From NCBI GenBank assembly GCA_022710975.1, contig JAKLGA010000008.1, positions 248,001 to 312,000 on the forward strand: 64,000 nt of DNA, given 5' to 3'. Below, one piece after another: positions 52,621 through 63,140 of this stretch. The translations under genes were made by a program, and so were the position numbers. The notes below the pieces were generated by a model, which worked only from the letters and a program-made list of their open reading frames with translations, had not been told where the DNA came from and ran no database searches. The DNA is from Myxococcota bacterium (GTDB lineage: Bacteria > Myxococcota > B64-G9). Position 1 is the stretch's first letter. Every line of letters starts with the position of its first letter.

Positions 52621-53754
52621 ATGCCGATCACCGGGACCCTCGACATGATGCCGCTGTGCGATCTGATGCAGTGGATCCACTCGGCCCAGAAGACCGGCAC
52701 CCTGACCGTCACGGTGGACACCCAGGAGACCTACCTTACGTTCCAGCACGGGCAGCTCGAGGCCTTCGGCACCGACGACCCGCTGCGCACCGACCTCGGC
52801 CAGATGCTGCTCGGCCGGGGCCTGCTGGGCGAGGCCGAGCTGCAGGCCGCGCTGCGGCTGGTGCGGGTCGAGCGCGGCCTGGCGGACGTGCTCGCCCAGA
52901 CCGGGCTGCTCGGCGCGGAGCAGATCGCCGCGGTGCAGATCGATCACGCCCTGGAGACGGTGCTGGATCTCTTCTTCCAGAACGAGGGCAGCTTCCACTT
53001 CACCAACAGATCCTCGCCCAGCATCCTGTCGCTGCCGGAGACGCCCCTGGTCAACCGCCTCGGGCGGCCCATCCCGACTGGCGAGCTGCTCATGGAGGGC
53101 ATGCGCCGGGTGGACGAGTGGGCCCGCATCCGCGAGGTGTTCCCCAGCCTGCTGGTGCTGGTCGCGGCGCGCCTGCCGCTGGACGCGGCGGCCGCCAGGA
53201 ACCGGGTGATCCAGGAGCTGCTGCAGATCGGCCACCCGATCTCGGTGGGCGAGCTGTGCCTGCGCCTGGGCGGCAGCCGCTTCCGCATCCACCAGGAGCT
53301 GTTCGCCGCCCAGCAGGCCGGGTCGCTGGCGGTCGAGAAGCCGCCCAGCGGGCCCTCCACCGCCACCCCGACCAACCCGGTCGAGCTGCTGCTCCAGACC
53401 GCCGAGGCCCTGCTCCAGGAGGAGCAGTTCGACGAGGCCAAGGAGGTGCTGGGCACCGCGGCCAACCTCGACCCGGACCACCCCCGCCCGCACCAGCTCC
53501 TGCAGCAGGCCCGCGAGGCCCAGCTGCAGCACCTCTACCAGCAGGTCCCGCCGCACCGGGTGCCGGTGCTGGCCGTGCCTCACGAGAAGCTCAGCGAGTA
53601 CGCCCTCGGTCCCCGCGAGACCTACTTGGCCTCGCGGCTGAACGGGCACCTGGACGTGGCCACCCTGGTGGTGGCCACCCCGGTGGGAGAGCTGGAGACC
53701 CTGCGCGTGCTGGCCAAGCTGCTGCACGCGGGGCTGGTCAAGTTCCTGGGCTAG
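52621..53754 (+). CDS. PATAN (DUF4388) domain protein with TPR-like segment
   Basis: This 377-residue soluble protein begins with a PATAN/DUF4388 domain (about 1-140): GTLDMMPLCDLMQWIHSAQKTG followed by L.V and a FF.EGSFHF strand. PATAN domains occur in response-regulator outputs of motility and gliding systems, notably beside MglA-type GTPases. The middle (about 170-250) is helical, and residues about 255-320 hold a TPR-like pair (ALLQEEQFDEAKEVLGTAANLDPD). It begins nine bases after the thioesterase gene and ends six bases before the convergent MglA-like gene. A signalling-adapter role is inferred. Confidence 0.78.
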   Translation: MPITGTLDMMPLCDLMQWIHSAQKTGTLTVTVDTQETYLTFQHGQLEAFGTDDPLRTDLGQMLLGRGLLGEAELQAALRLVRVERGLADVLAQTGLLGAEQIAAVQIDHALETVLDLFFQNEGSFHFTNRSSPSILSLPETPLVNRLGRPIPTGELLMEGMRRVDEWARIREVFPSLLVLVAARLPLDAAAARNRVIQELLQIGHPISVGELCLRLGGSRFRIHQELFAAQQAGSLAVEKPPSGPSTATPTNPVELLLQTAEALLQEEQFDEAKEVLGTAANLDPDHPRPHQLLQQAREAQLQHLYQQVPPHRVPVLAVPHEKLSEYALGPRETYLASRLNGHLDVATLVVATPVGELETLRVLAKLLHAGLVKFLG

Positions 53755-53760
53755 GCCGGC

Positions 53761-54801
<1,041 letters not shown>

Positions 54802-54864: not shown

Positions 54865-57800
54865 TCAGCGGCCCGCGCCGACCACCAGGAAGGGGGCCCA
54901 GAAGAAGGGGTGCGACAGGTCCGCGTCCCCCAGCAGCTCGCGCTGCGTGAGGGTCAGCGCCCTGGGCGCGGGCTCGCCCGCCAGCAGGTGGCCGTAGAAG
55001 CGCAGCATGAAGGCGCGGGTGCCCTGATCGGAGACCTGCCACAGGCTGGAGAGCACCGCCTGGGCGCCGGCCTCCAGGAAGGCGCGCCGCAGGCCCTGGA
55101 CACCCTCGCCCTGGCGCACGTCGCCCAGCCCGGTCTCGCAGGCGGACAGCACGACCAGCCGGCAGCCCTGCAGCTCGAGGTCGAGGGCCTCCAGCGCCAG
55201 CAGCAACCCGTCGTTGCCGTCGGCCTGGTGTCCGCCCCGGACGCCCTCGTTGGCCGCGGCCAGCGCCAGCCCCGAGCGCACCAGCGGATCGCGCCGCGGC
55301 CCGGCGGGGGGGGCCGACGCCGCTGCGGCGCCCGGCGCGGCCGGCCGGGGGGCGAGCGTGAGCCCCCGGAGCCCGGCCACCAGCTCGCCTCCGGCGGAGG
55401 TCGAGGGCCTGGCGGGGCCCGAGGAGTCCAGGTAGAAGCCGTGGGTGGCCAGGTGCACCAGCTCGGGCTGGCGGGCGCGGCGCAGCGCGCCCTCGCTGGC
55501 CTCCGCCCCGCGCAGCAGGCTCACGCTCCGGCCGCCAGACTCCAGCAGCGCGGCCACCTGCTCGCCCTCGTCCGCGGCCCCGGACAGGGCGCTGAACTGC
55601 AGGCCGGCCAGCTCGCTGGCCCCGGCGGCCTCCACGGGGCCGGCCGGGCCGTAGTCGGGCCCGGCCAGCACCAGGGCCTTGCCCGCGGCCGGCGCGGGCG
55701 CGGAGGGCGGCCGCGGCAGGAGCTCCCGGCTGCTGCCCAGCAGGCCGAGCTCCACGTCCTGGACCAGGAAGCGACCGCCGGGCCCGCGCAGGGCGGCGAA
55801 GGGCAGCAGGTTCAGCGGGCCCTCGGGCACCAGCCACACGCGGGTGCGGCCGCGCAGCCAGGGCGCGAGCGGCTCCCACAGCAGGGCGTGCAGGCGCCGG
55901 GCCTGATCCTCCAGGTGGGTCGCGGGCGCGCCGAGATCGGGCAGGCCGAGCAGGCCTCGCAGCACCTGGGTGCGCTCGGACACCTCGGCCAGCGGGCCGA
56001 GATCCACCAGGCCGGTCTCCGGCGAGGCGCCCGGCGCCAGCACGGCTGCCGCCAGCCGCTCGGGTCCGAAGCGCGCGCCCGCCTCCAGCGGCCGGAACAC
56101 GAGGTACTCCACCAGGGCCTCGTCCTTGCCCAGGCGGGCGGCCACGGCGTCGAAGGACGGGCGCTCGGCGGCCTGGCGCAGGCCGACCACCGAGGCCGCC
56201 AGGCGCACCTCGCGCTCGCGCACCCCACCGCGCAACGCCTCCAGGCGCGCCTCGAAGTCCGCGAGGGGCTCGCCGCGCGGCCCGGCCGCGAGCCGCTCGC
56301 CCAGCTCCCGGCGCAGCTCCGCCAGCTCGCGGGCCTGGCCCGCCAGGGCGGGATCGGCCTGGGCCCGCGACAGCGCCGCCACCTCGGCCGCGGCCCGCAG
56401 CGCCAGCCCCTTGTTCGCGAAGGCCACCTCCAGCGCCAGGCGGGCCGCCTCGGGCGAGCCGAGCGCGACCAGGCCGCTGAGCATGATCCGCAGCGGATCG
56501 CCCTCCGCCTCGAGCAGGACGCCCCGGGTGCGATCATCGGCCGCCCACAGCTGGGCCTCCAGCCGCCTGGCCCGCGAGCGGACGATGTCGCGCCAGTCCT
56601 GCCAGCAGCCCGTGTCTCCGGCGAGCCCCCGCAGCTGCGCCAGGACCTGCCGGGCGGAGAGCGCGTCGCGGCCGTCCGGCCCCTCGGTGGCGAGCAGCCA
56701 GGGCAGCGCCTCCTCCATGAGGGCGCGCGCCTCGGCATGCTTGCCGAGCTGGAACTCCACCAGGCCCAGGATCACGCTGGCCTGCGAGCGGAAGGGATGG
56801 CCCGGATCGTACGCCTGCCCGATCCCGGCGTGGATCGCGACCAGGGCCGGCTCCACGGCCCGCGCGTCCTCGCGCCCCAGCCTCCATATCACCTCCCAGA
56901 ATCGCCAGACGAGCACGGTCGGGCTGGCTTCGCCGAGTACACCCGAGAGCCTCGCCAGCGCCGCCCGCAGGGGCGCCGGGTCATGGGCCGGATCCGCCTC
57001 GACCTGGAAGAAGGCGAGCTGGCCCTGGAGCTCGAGGCTACGAGGGTGGTCCGGGCCCAGCACCTCGGCCGTGAGCGCGCTGGCCTGCCGCAGCGAGCGC
57101 ACGGCCCCCTCGGGATCGCCACCCGCCGCCGCGGCCTGGGCCAGGACCGCCAGGCTGTTGAGGGTCTCGGGGTGCCGCTCGCCCAGCGTCTCGCGCCTGA
57201 GCTTCAGGGCCTCCTCCAGGCTCAGCCGCGCCTCGGCCAGGTGGCCGCGCTCCAGCAGCACCAGGCCCAGGCCGTGCAGGGAGTAGAGCGTGGCCGGGTG
57301 GGCGCGGCCCAGCCGCCGGGTGCGGCCCTCCAGGGACGCGCGCTCGTGGACCTCGGCCGCGGACAGCAGGCCCAGCTCGCGCAGGGTCTGGGCCAGGTTG
57401 TGCCGGGCGCGCAGCCCGCCCTCCTCCTCGCCCTTGCCCAGCCGGCGCAGGGCCTCCCACGCCTCGGCGTACAGCAGGCGCGCGCGCTCGCTCTGGCCCA
57501 GGGCGTTCAGCACCAACCCCAGGTTGTTGAGCAACAACAGGCTCGCCTCGTGATCCGCGCCGAGTCGCTCGCGGGCCAGGGTGAGCCCGCGCTCCAGCAC
57601 GCTCCGCGCCCGGTCGAGCTGGCCCGCCTGGAAGGCCGCGTAGCCCAGGCTGCCGGCGGCCGACAGGGTGTCCGCGTCCGCCTCGCCCTCTCGCGCCAGG
57701 AGCGCGGCGTGGGCATGCTCGAGCAGCGGCACGGCCTCGAAGGGCTGCCCGAGCTGGAGCAGCACCTCGGCCAGCTCACTCTCGGCCCGCGGCACCAGAG

Positions 57801-59094
57801 CATGCTCCTGGCCGAGGCAGCGCCGCAGGTCCGCGAGCACCTCCCGCCGCAGCGGCAGGGCCTCCTCGAGGCGGCCCTGGCTGTGGTAGGCGCCGGCCAG
57901 CTTCCAGGTCGCGTCGAGCAAGCCGCAGCCCGACCTGTGCCGCCTGCGCGCCCGCTTCAGGTCCGCCGCGTACGCCTCCACCTGGATGTCGAGGTCCTCG
58001 CTGCGCGCCGAGAGCCCGGCCCGCAGCTTCTCCACCTCGATGGCGAGCGGGTGCCCCTCGGGCAGGCTGGCGCGGCCATCCTCGAGCAGCCGGTCGGCCT
58101 GCTCGCGCGCCAGCTCGTACAGGCCGAACCGCTGGGCCACGGTGACCAGCTTGGCCCGCATGGCGAGGCAGTGCGGGTTGCTCCCGTCGAGCGCGCCGGC
58201 ACAGCCATCGATCGCCTCCGCCAGCAGGTGAAGCCCACGGAGCGACTGCCCGGCCGAGCTCAGCTGGAGGCCCAGCTCGCCCTGGTAGATCAGGCTCAGC
58301 AGGTGCTTCCCCCCCAGGTCCTTCGCGCTGGCCCGGTAGACCGCCTCCATGATCTCCAGGGCCGGCCGGAGCCGCCCGAGCTCGCGCAGGCAGGTGGCCT
58401 GGTTGTTGCGGTAGGTCAGGCAATCGGGGAAGTCCTGCCCCCCGAACCGCCTGGCGCAGCCCTTGACGGCCTCCCCGTAGAGCGGCAGGGCTCGCCTGGC
58501 GTCGCCCTGCACCCGCCGGACATCGGCCAGGGAGTTCAGCGCCCAGAGGGTGCTCGGGTGGTCCCGGCCGAAGCCCCGGCGGGCCACCGCCAGGGCCCGC
58601 TCGACGAGCGGCCGGGCCTCCGCGAGCTGGCCCATGGCCATCAGGTTCGCGACCTGCTGCGAGAGCGGCCCGAACTCGGCCAGGGCCTGCTGGACCGGGG
58701 GCGTGTCCGGCAGGGCCGAGGCCGCCGCGCGGGCAGCCTGCAGCTCCTGGGGATACTGCGACGCCAGCATCACCAGGCTCTGGTGGTGGATGCTCAGCCG
58801 ATCGCGAGCCCCGTGCCCCGCCGCCAGGCGGGCCGCCCGGCGGTACACGTCGCGGGCCTCGTCGAGCTGCCCGAGGTTGACGAGCGTCTGGGCCAGCGCG
58901 GCCAGCACCCCGTCGTCCTCGGGCAGCAGGGCGGACACGCGCCTGAAGATGCCCAGGGCGCTCGGGTTGTCCCCGTCCGCGAGCGCCTGCTGGCCCTGGC
59001 GGAACAGCTCGACCGGATCCACGCTCTGCGGGGCCTCCTCGGCCACGGCCGGGAGCGCCAGGAGGGTGACGAGCCACAGGATCGAGGTGCGCAT
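54865..59094 (-). CDS. Secreted TPR-CHAT protease
   Basis: This 1409-residue protein has a signal peptide (MRTSILWLVTLLALPAVA-EEA), so it acts outside the cytoplasm. Residues about 30-900 are a long TPR array (for example LFRQGQQALADGDNPSALG, HPSTLWALNSLADVRR, HPATLYSLHGLGLVLLERG). A coiled helical part is followed by a CHAT (caspase HetF-associated) domain at about 1090-1409. It carries VHLATHGF (His1218) and VVLSACETG (Cys1319), the His-Cys dyad of this caspase-like family, then a GL..AFL...A..VL.SLW segment. Target proteins are unknown. It is divergent from the DUF4384/CHASE2-cyclase genes, whose products lie in the same compartment. Confidence 0.88.
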   Translation of the reverse strand: MRTSILWLVTLLALPAVAEEAPQSVDPVELFRQGQQALADGDNPSALGIFRRVSALLPEDDGVLAALAQTLVNLGQLDEARDVYRRAARLAAGHGARDRLSIHHQSLVMLASQYPQELQAARAAASALPDTPPVQQALAEFGPLSQQVANLMAMGQLAEARPLVERALAVARRGFGRDHPSTLWALNSLADVRRVQGDARRALPLYGEAVKGCARRFGGQDFPDCLTYRNNQATCLRELGRLRPALEIMEAVYRASAKDLGGKHLLSLIYQGELGLQLSSAGQSLRGLHLLAEAIDGCAGALDGSNPHCLAMRAKLVTVAQRFGLYELAREQADRLLEDGRASLPEGHPLAIEVEKLRAGLSARSEDLDIQVEAYAADLKRARRRHRSGCGLLDATWKLAGAYHSQGRLEEALPLRREVLADLRRCLGQEHALVPRAESELAEVLLQLGQPFEAVPLLEHAHAALLAREGEADADTLSAAGSLGYAAFQAGQLDRARSVLERGLTLARERLGADHEASLLLLNNLGLVLNALGQSERARLLYAEAWEALRRLGKGEEEGGLRARHNLAQTLRELGLLSAAEVHERASLEGRTRRLGRAHPATLYSLHGLGLVLLERGHLAEARLSLEEALKLRRETLGERHPETLNSLAVLAQAAAAGGDPEGAVRSLRQASALTAEVLGPDHPRSLELQGQLAFFQVEADPAHDPAPLRAALARLSGVLGEASPTVLVWRFWEVIWRLGREDARAVEPALVAIHAGIGQAYDPGHPFRSQASVILGLVEFQLGKHAEARALMEEALPWLLATEGPDGRDALSARQVLAQLRGLAGDTGCWQDWRDIVRSRARRLEAQLWAADDRTRGVLLEAEGDPLRIMLSGLVALGSPEAARLALEVAFANKGLALRAAAEVAALSRAQADPALAGQARELAELRRELGERLAAGPRGEPLADFEARLEALRGGVREREVRLAASVVGLRQAAERPSFDAVAARLGKDEALVEYLVFRPLEAGARFGPERLAAAVLAPGASPETGLVDLGPLAEVSERTQVLRGLLGLPDLGAPATHLEDQARRLHALLWEPLAPWLRGRTRVWLVPEGPLNLLPFAALRGPGGRFLVQDVELGLLGSSRELLPRPPSAPAPAAGKALVLAGPDYGPAGPVEAAGASELAGLQFSALSGAADEGEQVAALLESGGRSVSLLRGAEASEGALRRARQPELVHLATHGFYLDSSGPARPSTSAGGELVAGLRGLTLAPRPAAPGAAAASAPPAGPRRDPLVRSGLALAAANEGVRGGHQADGNDGLLLALEALDLELQGCRLVVLSACETGLGDVRQGEGVQGLRRAFLEAGAQAVLSSLWQVSDQGTRAFMLRFYGHLLAGEPAPRALTLTQRELLGDADLSHPFFWAPFLVVGAGR

Positions 59095-59129
59095 GCTGCC
59101 GAGGGTGGCACAGAAGGGGGTTTCAGTGC

Positions 59130-59135
59130 TACCTT
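59130..59135 (+). promoter_or_regulatory. -10-like TACCTT seven bases before the DUF4384 gene
   Basis: TACCTT ends seven bases before the ATG at 59143, which has no ribosome binding site. The -35 region (GGCACA 17 bases upstream) is weak. It fits the leaderless pattern. Confidence 0.4.
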
Positions 59136-59142
59136 GCCCGGC

Positions 59143-59958
59143 ATGAGGACCCCCTCCCGTGCCTCCCTCGCGCTCGCGGCCCTGTCCCTGCTGGCCGGCT
59201 GCGCCGGGGCGCAGCGCACCGAGGCCGAGCGGCCGCGGGCCGCCGCGCCGGACCTGGCCGCGGCGCGGGTCGGGTTGCAGGCCGCCGTGCTGGTGGAGCG
59301 CCGCCTCCCGGGCGGCGCGCGCATCGACGTGCTCGCGGACGGCGAGGCGCTCGAGAACGGGGACGGCCTGCGCCTGGCCCTGGAGCTCGCGCGGCCGGCC
59401 CACGTGCTGGCCATCTACCTGGACAGCCGCGCCCGGGCCAGCCTGCTGTTCCCCAGCCCGGACCTCCCGCTGCAGAACCCTCTGCCGGCGGGCAAGTCAC
59501 TGGACATCCCGCTGGCCGGGAGCTGGTTCACCCTGGAGGGTGAGCCCGGCCAGGAGAGCATCTACCTGCTGGCCAGCCCCGAGCCCCTGGCGGACGTGCC
59601 TGGCCTGCTGGCGCGGCTGAGCGCCCTGGGCCCGGGCTGGGCCACGGCGCGGGCGGATCAGACCGTGGCCGAGCACCTGACCCGCGGCGGCGTGCTCCGA
59701 CCGCACGAGGTGCCCGATCCAGCCCGCGCCTCCGGGCAGGGCGGCCAGGGCCTGGCCCGCCCGGACGAGCGCCACGGGGGCGGACCGGCGGAGCCGCCCC
59801 GGAGCCCGCCGGCAGACGATCCCGACCGGCAGGCGCCGTTCCGGCGGCCCATGCTGCTGGCCGGGGTGGTGCGCGGCGACGACTCCGGCAGCGAGCTGCG
59901 CCGGCTGCTCGAGAACGACGGTGTCGAGGTGCGCACCGTGAGCTTCCAGCACCGCTGA
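59143..59958 (+). CDS. DUF4384-domain lipoprotein
   Basis: This 271-residue lipoprotein has the signal MRTPSRASLALAALSLLAGC (Cys20). Residues about 45-175 are a beta-rich DUF4384 domain (RIDVLADGEALENGDGLRLALEL, then HVLAIYLDSRARASLLFPSP and PLAGSWFTLEGEPGQESIYLLAS). DUF4384 genes are frequently found beside caspase-like genes. The C-terminus is a Pro/Arg-rich low-complexity linker and a short strand (MLLAGVVRGD). It is the first gene of a plus-strand unit with the CHASE2 cyclase, three bases apart, and divergent from the CHAT gene. It may present a substrate or ligand to the protease; that is an inference. Confidence 0.8.
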   Translation: MRTPSRASLALAALSLLAGCAGAQRTEAERPRAAAPDLAAARVGLQAAVLVERRLPGGARIDVLADGEALENGDGLRLALELARPAHVLAIYLDSRARASLLFPSPDLPLQNPLPAGKSLDIPLAGSWFTLEGEPGQESIYLLASPEPLADVPGLLARLSALGPGWATARADQTVAEHLTRGGVLRPHEVPDPARASGQGGQGLARPDERHGGGPAEPPRSPPADDPDRQAPFRRPMLLAGVVRGDDSGSELRRLLENDGVEVRTVSFQHR

Positions 59959-59961
59959 GGC

Positions 59962-61914
59962 ATGCCGCCCGCCGAGAAACCAACCGCCGTGCCCGGCCGC
60001 CTGGGCCTGCCCGTGTCGCTGGCGCTCGGCCTGGGTGCCGGCCTGCTGGCCGCGCTGCTGTCGCTCCTGGCGCCCTCCCTGGAGCTGGCCACCCTGGACG
60101 CACGCTTCCACCTGCGCGGCCCCCGGCCCGCGAGCGGCCAGGTGGCTCTGGTGCTGCTGGACGACACCAGCCTCGCCACCGTCTCGACCTGGGGCGCGCA
60201 CGCCCGCCTGCTGTGGACCCTCCGGGCCCTCGGGGTCGAGCTGGTCGTCTCGGACGTCCTCTTCCGCCACGCGGGCCAGGACGCCGCCGCCCTGGTGGAC
60301 GCCCAGCGGGCGCTGCCGGTGGTGCACCCGCTGGGGGTGGACTTCTTCCCGCCCGGCGACTGGCCGCTCCAGGGCGCCATCGACGAGCAGGACGCGCCCC
60401 TGCCGCCCGCGCTGCTCGCGCGTTTCGACCCGGTCGTGCTCCCCCGGGGGGAGGCCCTGGCCGTGGATCGGGCGCTGGCGCCCTACCCGCCCCTGGCGGC
60501 GGCGGCCGCGGGACTGGGGCACATCGGGGCGCGCCTGGACCCGGACGGGGTGCTCCGGCGCCTCCCCCTGGTGGCCGATCTGGACGGACGCGTGCTGCCG
60601 TGCACGCCGCTCGCGGCGTTGCGCCTCCGGCTGGGCGCGGGCGGCGCGCTCGCCTGGACCGGGCACGAGGTGGTGGTGCCGCTCCCGGACGGCCGCGGTG
60701 AGCTGCGCGTGCCCACGGATCCCCGCGGCCAGGCGCTGATCGACTTCCTGGGTCCCTTCGACGGACAGCCGCTCCCCATCGTGCGCGCCGAGCGGGTGCT
60801 GGGCGTGAGCCAGGAGCCGGAGCTGGGCGCCGAGCTGCAGCGCCAGCTCGCCGGGCGGGTGGTCTACCTGGGGATGGCCGGCTCGGGCAGCACCGACCTG
60901 TCCCCCACGCCCTTCGACGTCTCCCCGCCGGCCCCGCGCGTGCTGGCGCTGGCCAGCCTGCTCGACCAGCTCCTGGCCGGGCGCAGCCTGCGAGAGGCCC
61001 CGGCCTGGCTGGGCTGGCTGCTGGCGCTCGGCAGCGGCCTGGGGCTGGCCTGGCTGGCCCGCGGGCGGCGCGCCTGGCCGCTGCACGCGTGCGCCGCGGG
61101 GGCGCTGGCCGCCTGGGCACTCGCTGCCCAGGGGGCCTTCGCCTGGGGCGGCTGGGTGCTGCCCGTGGCCGCGCCGGGCCTGGCGGTCGTGCTCGCCTGG
61201 GTGGGCGGCCTGGGCGCCCGCTTGTGGCGGGCGGAGCGCGCCCGGCGTCAGGTGGTGCAGACCTTCGGCCGCTACCTGTCCCAGGCCGTGCTGGACAAGG
61301 TCCTGGCCCAGCCCGACAGCCTGGGGGCGCACGCCGAGCGCAAGGTGGTCAGCGTGCTGTTCTCGGACATCGTGCGCTTCTCCGATACCTGCGAGCGCCT
61401 CGAGCCCGAGCAGGTGCACGATCTGCTCGGCGAGTACCTGGAGCGCATGGTGGCCTGCGTGTTCGCCGAGGAGGGCACGGTGGACAAGTTCATCGGCGAT
61501 GGGCTGCTGGCCTTCTTCGGCGATCCCGTGCCCCAGGCCGATCACGCCGCGCGCGCGGTGCGCGTGGCCCGGGCCATGCTGATCGCGGTGGAGGAGCTGA
61601 ACCGCGCCTGGTCCGCCCGGGGCCGCCCGACCCTCCAGATCCGCATCGGGGTGAACACCGGGCCCGTGGTGGTGGGCAACGTGGGCGCGCCCCGGCGCAT
61701 GGAGTACACCGTGCTGGGGCACGAGGTGAACCGCGCCCAGCGCCTGGAGGCCGCGGCCCGGCCTGGCACGCTGCTCATGGGCCAGGCCACCCAGCAGGCG
61801 GTGGCCGCGGAGTTCCCCGAGGCCCGGCCGGTGGGCGAGGTCCACGGCAAGCGCGAGGAGCGCATCCCGGCCTGGGAGCTGGCCGGCCCAGGCGCCGCCC
61901 CGCGGGCCGGTTGA
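59962..61914 (+). CDS. CHASE2-domain class III adenylate cyclase
   Basis: This 650-residue membrane enzyme has an N-terminal transmembrane segment (about 13-35) and a CHASE2 sensor domain in the periplasm (about 40-330). Three further membrane segments follow (about 345-425), then a class III cyclase domain (about 455-640). The catalytic domain has VLFSDIVRFSD and KFIGDG (the two metal Asp and the adenine-selecting Lys), NTGPVVVGN, and YTVLGHEVNRAQRLE with the transition-state Asn and Arg. The usual GDxVN is GHEVN here. It should make cAMP in response to an external cue. It starts three bases after the DUF4384 gene and shares its stop region with a promoter for the next gene. Confidence 0.9.
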   Translation: MPPAEKPTAVPGRLGLPVSLALGLGAGLLAALLSLLAPSLELATLDARFHLRGPRPASGQVALVLLDDTSLATVSTWGAHARLLWTLRALGVELVVSDVLFRHAGQDAAALVDAQRALPVVHPLGVDFFPPGDWPLQGAIDEQDAPLPPALLARFDPVVLPRGEALAVDRALAPYPPLAAAAAGLGHIGARLDPDGVLRRLPLVADLDGRVLPCTPLAALRLRLGAGGALAWTGHEVVVPLPDGRGELRVPTDPRGQALIDFLGPFDGQPLPIVRAERVLGVSQEPELGAELQRQLAGRVVYLGMAGSGSTDLSPTPFDVSPPAPRVLALASLLDQLLAGRSLREAPAWLGWLLALGSGLGLAWLARGRRAWPLHACAAGALAAWALAAQGAFAWGGWVLPVAAPGLAVVLAWVGGLGARLWRAERARRQVVQTFGRYLSQAVLDKVLAQPDSLGAHAERKVVSVLFSDIVRFSDTCERLEPEQVHDLLGEYLERMVACVFAEEGTVDKFIGDGLLAFFGDPVPQADHAARAVRVARAMLIAVEELNRAWSARGRPTLQIRIGVNTGPVVVGNVGAPRRMEYTVLGHEVNRAQRLEAAARPGTLLMGQATQQAVAAEFPEARPVGEVHGKREERIPAWELAGPGAAPRAG

Positions 61915-61970: not shown

Positions 61971-63140
61971 ATGCGAATCCGCTCCCTCCCTGCCGCCCTG
62001 CTGCTCGCCGGCCTGCTCGTGTCCGCACGCGCCCCCGCCCAAGAGCCCATCGAAGAGCCTGCGCGGGCCCCCGTGCGCGTGGTCCCCATCCCCGCCGGCT
62101 CCCCCGACGCGGCCCTCGGGCTGGCGAGGTACGGCCTGGTGAGCCCCCAGGACGACGACTGCACCGACAGCGACTACTACGAGCTCGTGCGCGCCATCGA
62201 GGACCAGGCCCAGGGCATGCTGGCCAGGCACCTGGCGGCCAAGGGCGTGGCGTTCCGCGCGCTCGGCCACAGCGAGGACTCCACCCTGAAGCTGCGGCCC
62301 AGGCTCGACCTCAACTACTGCAAGTCATACGGCAGCCGCAAGGTCGAGGGCGTGGCGACCCTCGAGCTGACCGACGGCAACACCTCGACCCGCGTGGGTC
62401 CGTGGGCGCTGGCCTGGGACCAGGACAACCCCTACCCGGCCCGGGCCACCGACCGGCCGACCTGGTCGGCGGACCAGGACGTGCAGGGCTTCTGCTACGA
62501 GGTGGACAACGCCCTGGCCTTCCTGGTGGACAAGCTGCTCGAGGCCGCGTCCGCCCGGCTCCAGGCCGGCCGCCCGCCCCCCGACCCCGCTCCCGCGCCG
62601 GCCCGGGTCGAACCGGCCCCGGCCGTGGCCCAGCCGGCGGCGCCGGCGCGCGCGGAGCCGCCGGCTCCGGTCGTGGCGCAGCCCGTGGCCCCGCCGCCGA
62701 GGGGGGACAGGCCGGAGCCCAGGGGGCCCGCGCCCATCGTGGCGGTGTTCGACATCCAGGACGACAGCAAGCGCTACAAGCCCGCCCAGCTCCAGCAGCT
62801 CAGCGAGTACCTGGCCGGTAAGCTGGCCGAGCAGGGCGCCTTCCGGGTGGTGCCGCGCGATCAGCTCCGCACGCGCCTGCAGCGCGAGAAGACCCAGACC
62901 TACCAGGAGTGCTACGACATGAGCTGCCAGATCGAGCTCGGCAAGGCCATGGCGGCCGAGAAGTCGCTGGCCACGAAGCTGCTGCGCTTCGGCAACGCCT
63001 GCTCGGTCTCCCTCACCCTCTACGATCTGCGCAGCGAGGCCAGCGAGGGCTCGGCCACCGAGGATCAGCGAGACTGCTCCGAGCGGGAGCTGCTGGAGGC
63101 GCTCCGCCGGGCCGTCAGCCGCCTGACCGCAGGCCGCTGA
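61971..63140 (+). CDS. Secreted protein with Pro-rich linker and TolB/CsgG-like C-terminal module
   Basis: This 389-residue protein has a signal peptide (MRIRSLPAALLLAGLLVSARA-PAQ). It has an N-terminal domain (about 30-190) of unknown type, with several Asp/Cys positions (DDDCTDSDYY), and a Pro/Ala-rich linker (about 195-255). The C-terminal alpha/beta module (about 258-385) has PIVAVFDIQD, QECYDMSCQIELGKAMAAEK and a SLTLYDLR strand. The same module, with CxD..C..E.G.A.....V, forms the start of the PEGA protein at 14465. Such modules resemble CsgG/TolB N-terminal regions of outer-membrane assembly proteins. It follows the cyclase on the same strand with its own promoter. Confidence 0.7.
   Translation: MRIRSLPAALLLAGLLVSARAPAQEPIEEPARAPVRVVPIPAGSPDAALGLARYGLVSPQDDDCTDSDYYELVRAIEDQAQGMLARHLAAKGVAFRALGHSEDSTLKLRPRLDLNYCKSYGSRKVEGVATLELTDGNTSTRVGPWALAWDQDNPYPARATDRPTWSADQDVQGFCYEVDNALAFLVDKLLEAASARLQAGRPPPDPAPAPARVEPAPAVAQPAAPARAEPPAPVVAQPVAPPPRGDRPEPRGPAPIVAVFDIQDDSKRYKPAQLQQLSEYLAGKLAEQGAFRVVPRDQLRTRLQREKTQTYQECYDMSCQIELGKAMAAEKSLATKLLRFGNACSVSLTLYDLRSEASEGSATEDQRDCSERELLEALRRAVSRLTAGR

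Follow-up and report, generated by a model that had tools for sequence, protein, structure and literature searches.

What would a protease predicted to work in the periplasm be doing beside a membrane receptor that makes a second messenger? The question is raised by a locus of a Myxococcota bacterium (assembly GCA_022710975.1, genome of 7.13 Mb), which lies in a stretch of 64,000 nucleotides of contig JAKLGA010000008.1, positions 248,001 to 312,000 (G000:C28:248001-312000; hereafter the window). In this locus, the gene for a TPR-CHAT protein on the minus strand diverges from a plus-strand operon encoding a DUF4384 lipoprotein and a CHASE2 class III adenylyl cyclase, with an intergenic gap of 48 bp. 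The best-known CHAT proteases belong to cytoplasmic systems, namely Craspase and the separase relatives. The first-pass annotation had proposed that the protease acts in the periplasm on CHASE2 and so alters cyclic AMP (cAMP). This proposal is partly supported, by the compartment that the three products are predicted to share, by the retention of the set in a second genus and by pairings of its parts in several phyla, but the signal peptide is not distinctive and the linkage to CHASE2 cyclases is weak. The locus is read here, tentatively and at somewhat less than an even chance, as one envelope module of CHAT protease, DUF4384 protein and CHASE2 cyclase.

The TPR-CHAT protein most likely begins at ATG 59094 and not at GTG 59403, as far as which the open frame extends upstream. 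Read from this ATG, the N-terminus is a clear signal peptide by inspection (MRTSILWLVTLLALPAVA, followed by EEA), hydropathy indicates no transmembrane helix, and the orthologue in the second genus (genome G005) starts in the same manner. The match to CHAT reaches 232.7 bits against a Pfam cut-off of 24 (PF12770), and Peptidase_C14 (PF00656) gives no match at E 0.01, which places the protein outside the orthocaspases. The dyad named in the first-pass annotation is correctly numbered: His1218 is the second H of HLATHG, and together with Cys1319 it occupies alignment columns (H370 and C471) that are invariant in all 34 aligned relatives. A model of the 561 C-terminal residues, built on 34 sequences, has a caspase-type fold (predicted local distance difference test score, pLDDT, 84.9; predicted template modelling score 0.88). 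Its nearest solved structure is Csx29/TPR-CHAT (Z 28.2, root-mean-square deviation 3.7, 409 residues), and the next matches include separase (Z ~20), DdvA (Z 20.6, 19% identity over 331 residues), gingipain R (Z 17), SAVED-CHAT and MALT1 (Z 12). Hemagglutinin structures among the profile matches were taken as chance matches of coiled coils. Collectively, the export signal, the intact Cys/His dyad and the Csx29/separase-like fold point to a periplasmic endopeptidase, with a TPR arm that selects the target, as the most likely identity of this protein. It is very unlikely that the CHAT domain is instead a scaffold or ligand-binding domain that senses by binding, as may hold for DdvA. Although DdvA, a transmembrane anti-sigma factor, is the only CHAT chain that the sequence profile finds among solved structures (E 0.001), the invariance of both catalytic residues and the closeness of the fold to the protease Csx29 argue against such a role.

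The first-pass annotation had regarded the signal peptide as setting this CHAT protein apart, an expectation that its relatives do not support. Among the CHAT relatives drawn from 79 GTDB loci, 65 of the 73 that are complete carry a signal peptide under a home-made and lenient rule, which 249 of 567 other open reading frames also pass (Fisher p 3e-14 for the excess); six proteins cut at the 5' end were left out. The same rule is passed by 16 of 21 CHAT proteins of near genomes and by 18 of 20 sampled from the phylum, three 5'-cut proteins being omitted from these samples. All three CHAT proteins of the source genome look exported; the one on contig C16 has a signal peptide, and the one on contig C5 (G000:C5:221987-230041) is a protein of 2684 residues with a lipoprotein-like start and the CHAT domain at its end. 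Export thus appears, from these sequences, to be the rule and not the exception in this CHAT branch, and the rate is valid for this branch only because the relatives were chosen by similarity to an exported protein. CHAT open reading frames about as long as the C5 protein occur in most genomes of the class, and in one family of the phylum (G060-G138) the large genomes have numerous TPR-CHAT paralogues, often more than the 11 that were scored in each.

The two divergent neighbours are present as annotated, both far above the Pfam cut-offs. The lipobox LAGC of the DUF4384 protein agrees with the periplasmic position claimed for it, and the hydropathy of the cyclase (one transmembrane segment at 18-36, followed by the sensor, further transmembrane segments within 348-417 and finally the cyclase domain) fits a periplasmic CHASE2 sensor, so that a single compartment faced by all three products is a supported prediction. 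Alignment with CyaB (3r5g) shows that the cyclase domain has retained, in FSDI, TVDKFIGD and EYTVLGHEVNRAQRLE, the residues that serve metal, substrate and transition state in CyaB. They comprise the metal-binding Asp, the Lys and Thr for adenine, and the Asn and Arg. On this sequence evidence, the CHASE2 protein should make cAMP, for which the source genome holds possible receivers in 21 cNMP_binding matches. The DUF4384 protein was modelled from 3 sequences only (pLDDT 60.6), and its fold search returned only a common beta sandwich, with GbpA (Z 7.6) and the immunoglobulin (Ig)-like domain of EcPycC (Z 7.1) as the best matches.

Conservation of the set was examined in nine genomes of the class and 195 of the phylum. 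In G005, where it forms locus L017 (identical to L037), the three genes retain the same divergent order around a gap of 82 bp, with identities to the window of 36% for CHAT over its full length, 55% for the cyclase and 37% for DUF4384. This genome also stands clear of all others in the phylum, scoring 403 bits for CHAT (next best 206) and 691 bits for the cyclase (next best 278). The DUF4384-CHASE2 pair extends to a third genus, G004, in which DUF4384 is followed by the start of a CHASE2 cyclase gene, about 66 codons, before the contig ends (L018). In all three genera, the two genes lie 3 bp apart or overlap, and the three CHASE2-adjacent DUF4384 proteins (window, L037/L017 and L018) have in common a C-terminal tail that the Pfam domain does not cover.

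DUF4384 itself most often keeps company with caspase-fold peptidases. At E 1e-7, 26 DUF4384 domains were found in 20 of the 195 phylum genomes, and all 26 loci were examined. A C14 caspase lies within 5 kb in 19 of them (two sharing one C14 gene) and CHAT in two (the window and L017); at L024 the C14 gene is 9 kb away, and four loci (L019, L028, L030 and the short contig L155) have neither C14 nor CHAT beside DUF4384. Among 114 loci obtained for other reasons, only three contain C14. For this difference in C14, Fisher's test gives p ~1e-14 (computed as 18/24 vs 3/113), with the reservation that some background matches may have been missed, since the loci searched with the C14, CHAT, CHASE2 and DUF4384 profiles also supplied the sequences for building them. 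The export rule is passed by all 16 C14 proteins tested and by 18 of 24 DUF4384 open reading frames, several of which look like membrane anchors. The source genome has a second, weak DUF4384 match that adjoins a C14 gene.

The pairing of DUF4384 with CHAT recurs outside the phylum in 5 of 78 GTDB loci: DUF4384 is directly upstream of CHAT in Acidobacteria (L080), convergent and adjacent in Verrucomicrobia (L081 and L074), also near at L067, and 6 kb away at L054, the last by a profile match only. A plasmid survey, in which 24 CHAT regions (+-8 kb) were viewed of 180 plasmid records with CHAT, added two cyanobacterial regions with DUF4384 just upstream of CHAT (L185 and L186) and two further regions with DUF4384 fused to C14 (L184 by Pfam, L194 by profile), these latter regions being syntenic. 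A tblastn search of the plasmids with DUF4384 gave no match, being too insensitive. A likely role of DUF4384 is that of partner to caspase-fold peptidases, whichever side of the membrane they are on.

CHASE2 also recurs beside CHAT, being near it in 6 of the 24 plasmid regions (L176, L178, L184, L193, L194 and L200) and absent from the annotation of 4 x 50 kb of four of the same plasmids. In Sphingobium (L200), a CHASE2 cyclase annotated as hypothetical begins 5 bp after CHAT to form a CHAT-CHASE2-cyclase operon, followed by a two-partner secretion transporter; read from start 5232, this CHAT has a signal-peptide-like N-terminus. In Deinococcus (L178), the gene divergent from CHAT encodes a CHASE2 protein that has no cyclase. 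Two regions, L184 and L182 (which extends the view of L176), have a degenerate CHAT domain, scoring just below the cut-off in L182, with CHASE2 fused behind it, and both fusions sit near a TPR-CHAT protein with an export signal and the dyad. A Bacteroidales locus (L102), 1 of the 78 GTDB loci, has CHASE2 3.4 kb from CHAT. Judged from these surveys, CHASE2 is a companion of CHAT more widely than CHASE2 with a cyclase is. A tblastn search with the CHASE2 and cyclase sequences of the window found nothing in the 78 non-self CHAT loci or on plasmids, a null that partly reflects low sensitivity because annotation and profile later found CHASE2. In L091 and L110, a cyclase domain lacking a CHASE2 match is ~9 kb distant from CHAT; these cases were not counted as linkage. 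In Caballeronia (L179), as in Sphingobium, CHAT adjoins genes of two-partner secretion (ShlB/FhaC with a large exoprotein).

Several observations weigh against a single module. The complete divergent set occurs in only 2 of the 9 class genomes, the source and G005, and in G004 the gene divergent from DUF4384-CHASE2 is not CHAT, a C14 caspase lying 4.2 kb off. Where CHASE2 stands beside CHAT in Cyanobacteria, in Deinococcus or at the Bacteroidales locus, no cyclase is attached to it. In the two cyanobacterial plasmids (L185/L186), both the DUF4384 protein and the TPR-CHAT protein are without a signal peptide, so the DUF4384-CHAT pairing is not bound to the periplasm; this is possibly a cytoplasmic, defence-like version. 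The 48-bp gap contains no convincing regulatory site. At 12 other CHASE2 loci (L116-L122 and L124-L128), tblastn found CHAT in none, and the neighbours vary, some being exported proteins that resemble SH3 or FecR by eye, from which it follows that CHASE2 cyclases have many partners. The linkage with CHASE2 cyclases expected by the first-pass annotation is weak, being seen in the source genome, in G005 and in the Sphingobium operon, and the neighbourhood survey that it called for yields pairings in several phyla that are patchy and often involve a CHASE2 without cyclase. As a separate observation, the L186 protein has a weak helix-turn-helix match, and one of the two cyanobacterial regions sits beside cas1.

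These points bear on the alternative in which DUF4384 forms a unit with the protease alone and the CHASE2 cyclase is an independent sensor that shares no function with them. DUF4384 pairs with a peptidase in 21 of 26 loci and with CHASE2 in 3 of 26, and the variety of CHASE2 partners elsewhere is in the same direction. This alternative is nonetheless improbable on balance, as it does not account for the tight DUF4384-CHASE2 spacing and shared tail in three genera, nor for CHASE2 adjoining or fused with CHAT in other phyla. In three of the other CHASE2 loci (L116:2051-7048, L117:4482-9427 and L118:356-5692), the cyclase lies directly downstream of an exported protein of ~1000 residues with a transglutaminase-like core, whose Cys, His and acidic residue are aligned in all three; TPRs are found in the L116 and L117 proteins, and DUF553 is above the Pfam cut-off in L117 only. 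Together with the CHAT loci, these cases indicate that short CHASE2 cyclases repeatedly adjoin exported cysteine hydrolases of two unrelated kinds. The recurrent pairings make a chance neighbourhood unlikely and point to a shared envelope function, a link for which the support is good.

The order of events within such a module is a guess. We infer that CHAT, DUF4384 and CHASE2 would act together from what the sequence offers, namely the parts, their export signals, the intact active sites, the retained synteny and the recurrent pairing. If the protease comes first, followed by DUF4384, CHASE2 and finally cAMP, the exported TPR-CHAT protein would cleave a periplasmic target picked by its TPR arm. 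The DUF4384 lipoprotein, with its Ig-like beta sandwich, would be an anchored partner of CHAT (adaptor, inhibitor or substrate), as DUF4384 proteins likely are for C14 caspases, and the CHASE2 cyclase would read the state of the CHAT-DUF4384 pair in the periplasm and convert it into cytoplasmic cAMP. Since the pairing persists when the CHASE2 output changes, CHASE2 as the reader of the pair would be the simplest arrangement. The reverse order, though rather unlikely, fits about equally well: the CHASE2 cyclase would sense an envelope signal, cAMP would act through a CRP-type regulator at the shared 48-bp promoter region, and CHAT and DUF4384 would be the output. Shared control is suggested by the divergent gaps of 48 and 82 bp, and the genome has its 21 cNMP_binding matches; against this, CHAT-CHASE2 pairing also holds where CHASE2 has no cyclase, and the 48-bp gap has no sigma-70-like site. 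An imperfect inverted repeat in the gap (10/12) was rejected as an operator, since a repeat at least as good occurs in 104 of 2206 stretches of 48 bp and none was seen in the L017 gap.

With the protease placed first, a more general envelope design can be envisaged, although its generality is doubtful: a cysteine hydrolase that is exported (a CHAT protease, a C14 caspase or, elsewhere, a transglutaminase-like enzyme), an Ig-like DUF4384 domain and a CHASE2 receptor would couple periplasmic proteolysis to a cytoplasmic second messenger. In such a design, the CHASE2 output would be interchangeable, an adenylyl cyclase here and in Sphingobium and a CHAT-like domain in Cyanobacteria, and the logic would be comparable to that of protease-activated receptors.

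Table 1. Features of the TPR-CHAT, DUF4384 and CHASE2 cyclase locus, in window coordinates
Feature	Position	Strand	Basis or remark
TPR-CHAT protein, 1409 aa, exported (predicted)	54865..59094	-	ATG start 59094; orthologue L017:3246-7463
Signal peptide MRTSILWLVTLLALPAVA, predicted cleavage before EEA	59041..59094	-	reading by eye, without SignalP
TPR array, residues ~29-675	57070..59010	-	Pfam TPR_12, TPR_10, others
CHAT domain, residues 1063-1406	54877..55908	-	PF12770 E 8e-69
Predicted catalytic His1218 codon	55441..55443	-	invariant in 34/34 relatives
Predicted catalytic Cys1319 codon	55138..55140	-	invariant in 34/34 relatives
Divergent gap, 48 bp	59095..59142	.	holds imperfect inverted repeat, 10/12
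DUF4384 lipoprotein, 271 aa, lipobox LAGC	59143..59958	+	sequence, Pfam
DUF4384 domain, residues 71-148	59353..59586	+	PF14326 E 1.3e-10
DUF4384 protein C-terminal tail (RPMLLAGVVRG...SFQH)	59845..59952	+	alignments: window, L037/L017, L018
CHASE2 class III adenylyl cyclase, 650 aa	59962..61914	+	starts 3 bp past DUF4384 stop
CHASE2 sensor, residues 30-356	60049..61029	+	PF05226 E 1.8e-30
Cyclase catalytic domain, residues 461-627	61342..61842	+	PF00211 Guanylate_cyc E 3.2e-24; alignment to CyaB 3r5g
Exported CsgG/LpoB-like protein, possible fourth gene	61971..63140	+	Pfam LpoB, DUF3280, both below cut-off; start read by eye

Two flanking genes were considered as core parts and left outside the module because neither adjoins the set in L017. 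One encodes the CsgG/LpoB-like protein, which has a homologue (42% identical) at L020 11560-11979 near a DUF4384-C14 pair and another at L117 9938-10186 near a CHASE2 cyclase. The other is an MglA/Ras-like GTPase gene (window 52621-54801), which has the same orientation as CHAT, follows it after 63 bp and is convergent with the gene for a DUF4388 protein.

Several known systems resemble parts of the locus. Csx29/TPR-CHAT of the type III-E CRISPR Craspase likewise combines TPRs with a CHAT domain bearing a Cys/His dyad; however, the accessible sources describe it as linked, in the cytoplasm, to Cas7-11 and RNA, whereas the CHAT of the locus is predicted to be exported, and the nine neighbouring proteins scanned include no Cas family, which sets the locus apart from type III-E systems. 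DdvA, a transmembrane anti-sigma factor by the titles of PDB entries 8rot and 8rw5 and part of the Myxococcus DdvS system in the accessible text of PMC4374960, gives CHAT in transmembrane signalling a precedent. It is, however, a single membrane protein feeding a sigma factor, while in the locus the CHAT protein is soluble and exported and the cyclase is encoded by its own gene; the signal peptide and the lack of a transmembrane helix place this CHAT outside the DdvA-type anti-sigma factors. Orthocaspases provide further parallels of a caspase-fold peptidase with DUF4384 or CHASE2: DUF4384 fusions account for 23 of 316 accessory-domain entries in the accessible part of PMC8283722 (see also PMC7475262), and a metacaspase-CHASE2 fusion is described for Trichodesmium in that of PMC3501461. 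These are C14 enzymes, mostly single polypeptides with no cyclase, in contrast to the CHAT, the separate genes and the cyclase of the locus. In Sinorhizobium meliloti, the CHASE2 cyclases CyaD1, CyaD2 and CyaK answer a protein signal via outer-membrane NsrA, according to the accessible text of PMC13001267, so CHASE2 readers of this kind exist; their partner is the NsrA beta barrel, rather than a protease and a DUF4384 lipoprotein. Pycsar PycC models match the cyclase domain (E 1.4e-28), but a Pycsar system was ruled out by the absence of cNMP-binding and TIR domains from the scanned neighbours. Literature searches, which left most subscription papers outside their reach, found nothing combining the CHAT domain with CHASE2 and, in the text accessible to them, no description of the three-gene set. 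Queries on CHAT domain, signal peptide and periplasm returned hypermutated-sensor work only, and those on anti-sigma factor and CHAT domain returned Craspase work only.

The value of the locus lies in what it may indicate about each of these families. Most relatives of this CHAT appear to be exported, and the links to DUF4384 and CHASE2 would supply concrete partners for exported CHAT proteins. DUF4384, a domain of unknown function, gains a likely job as a partner of caspase-fold peptidases, and the links of CHAT to DUF4384 and CHASE2 could explain what some CHASE2 receptors sense.

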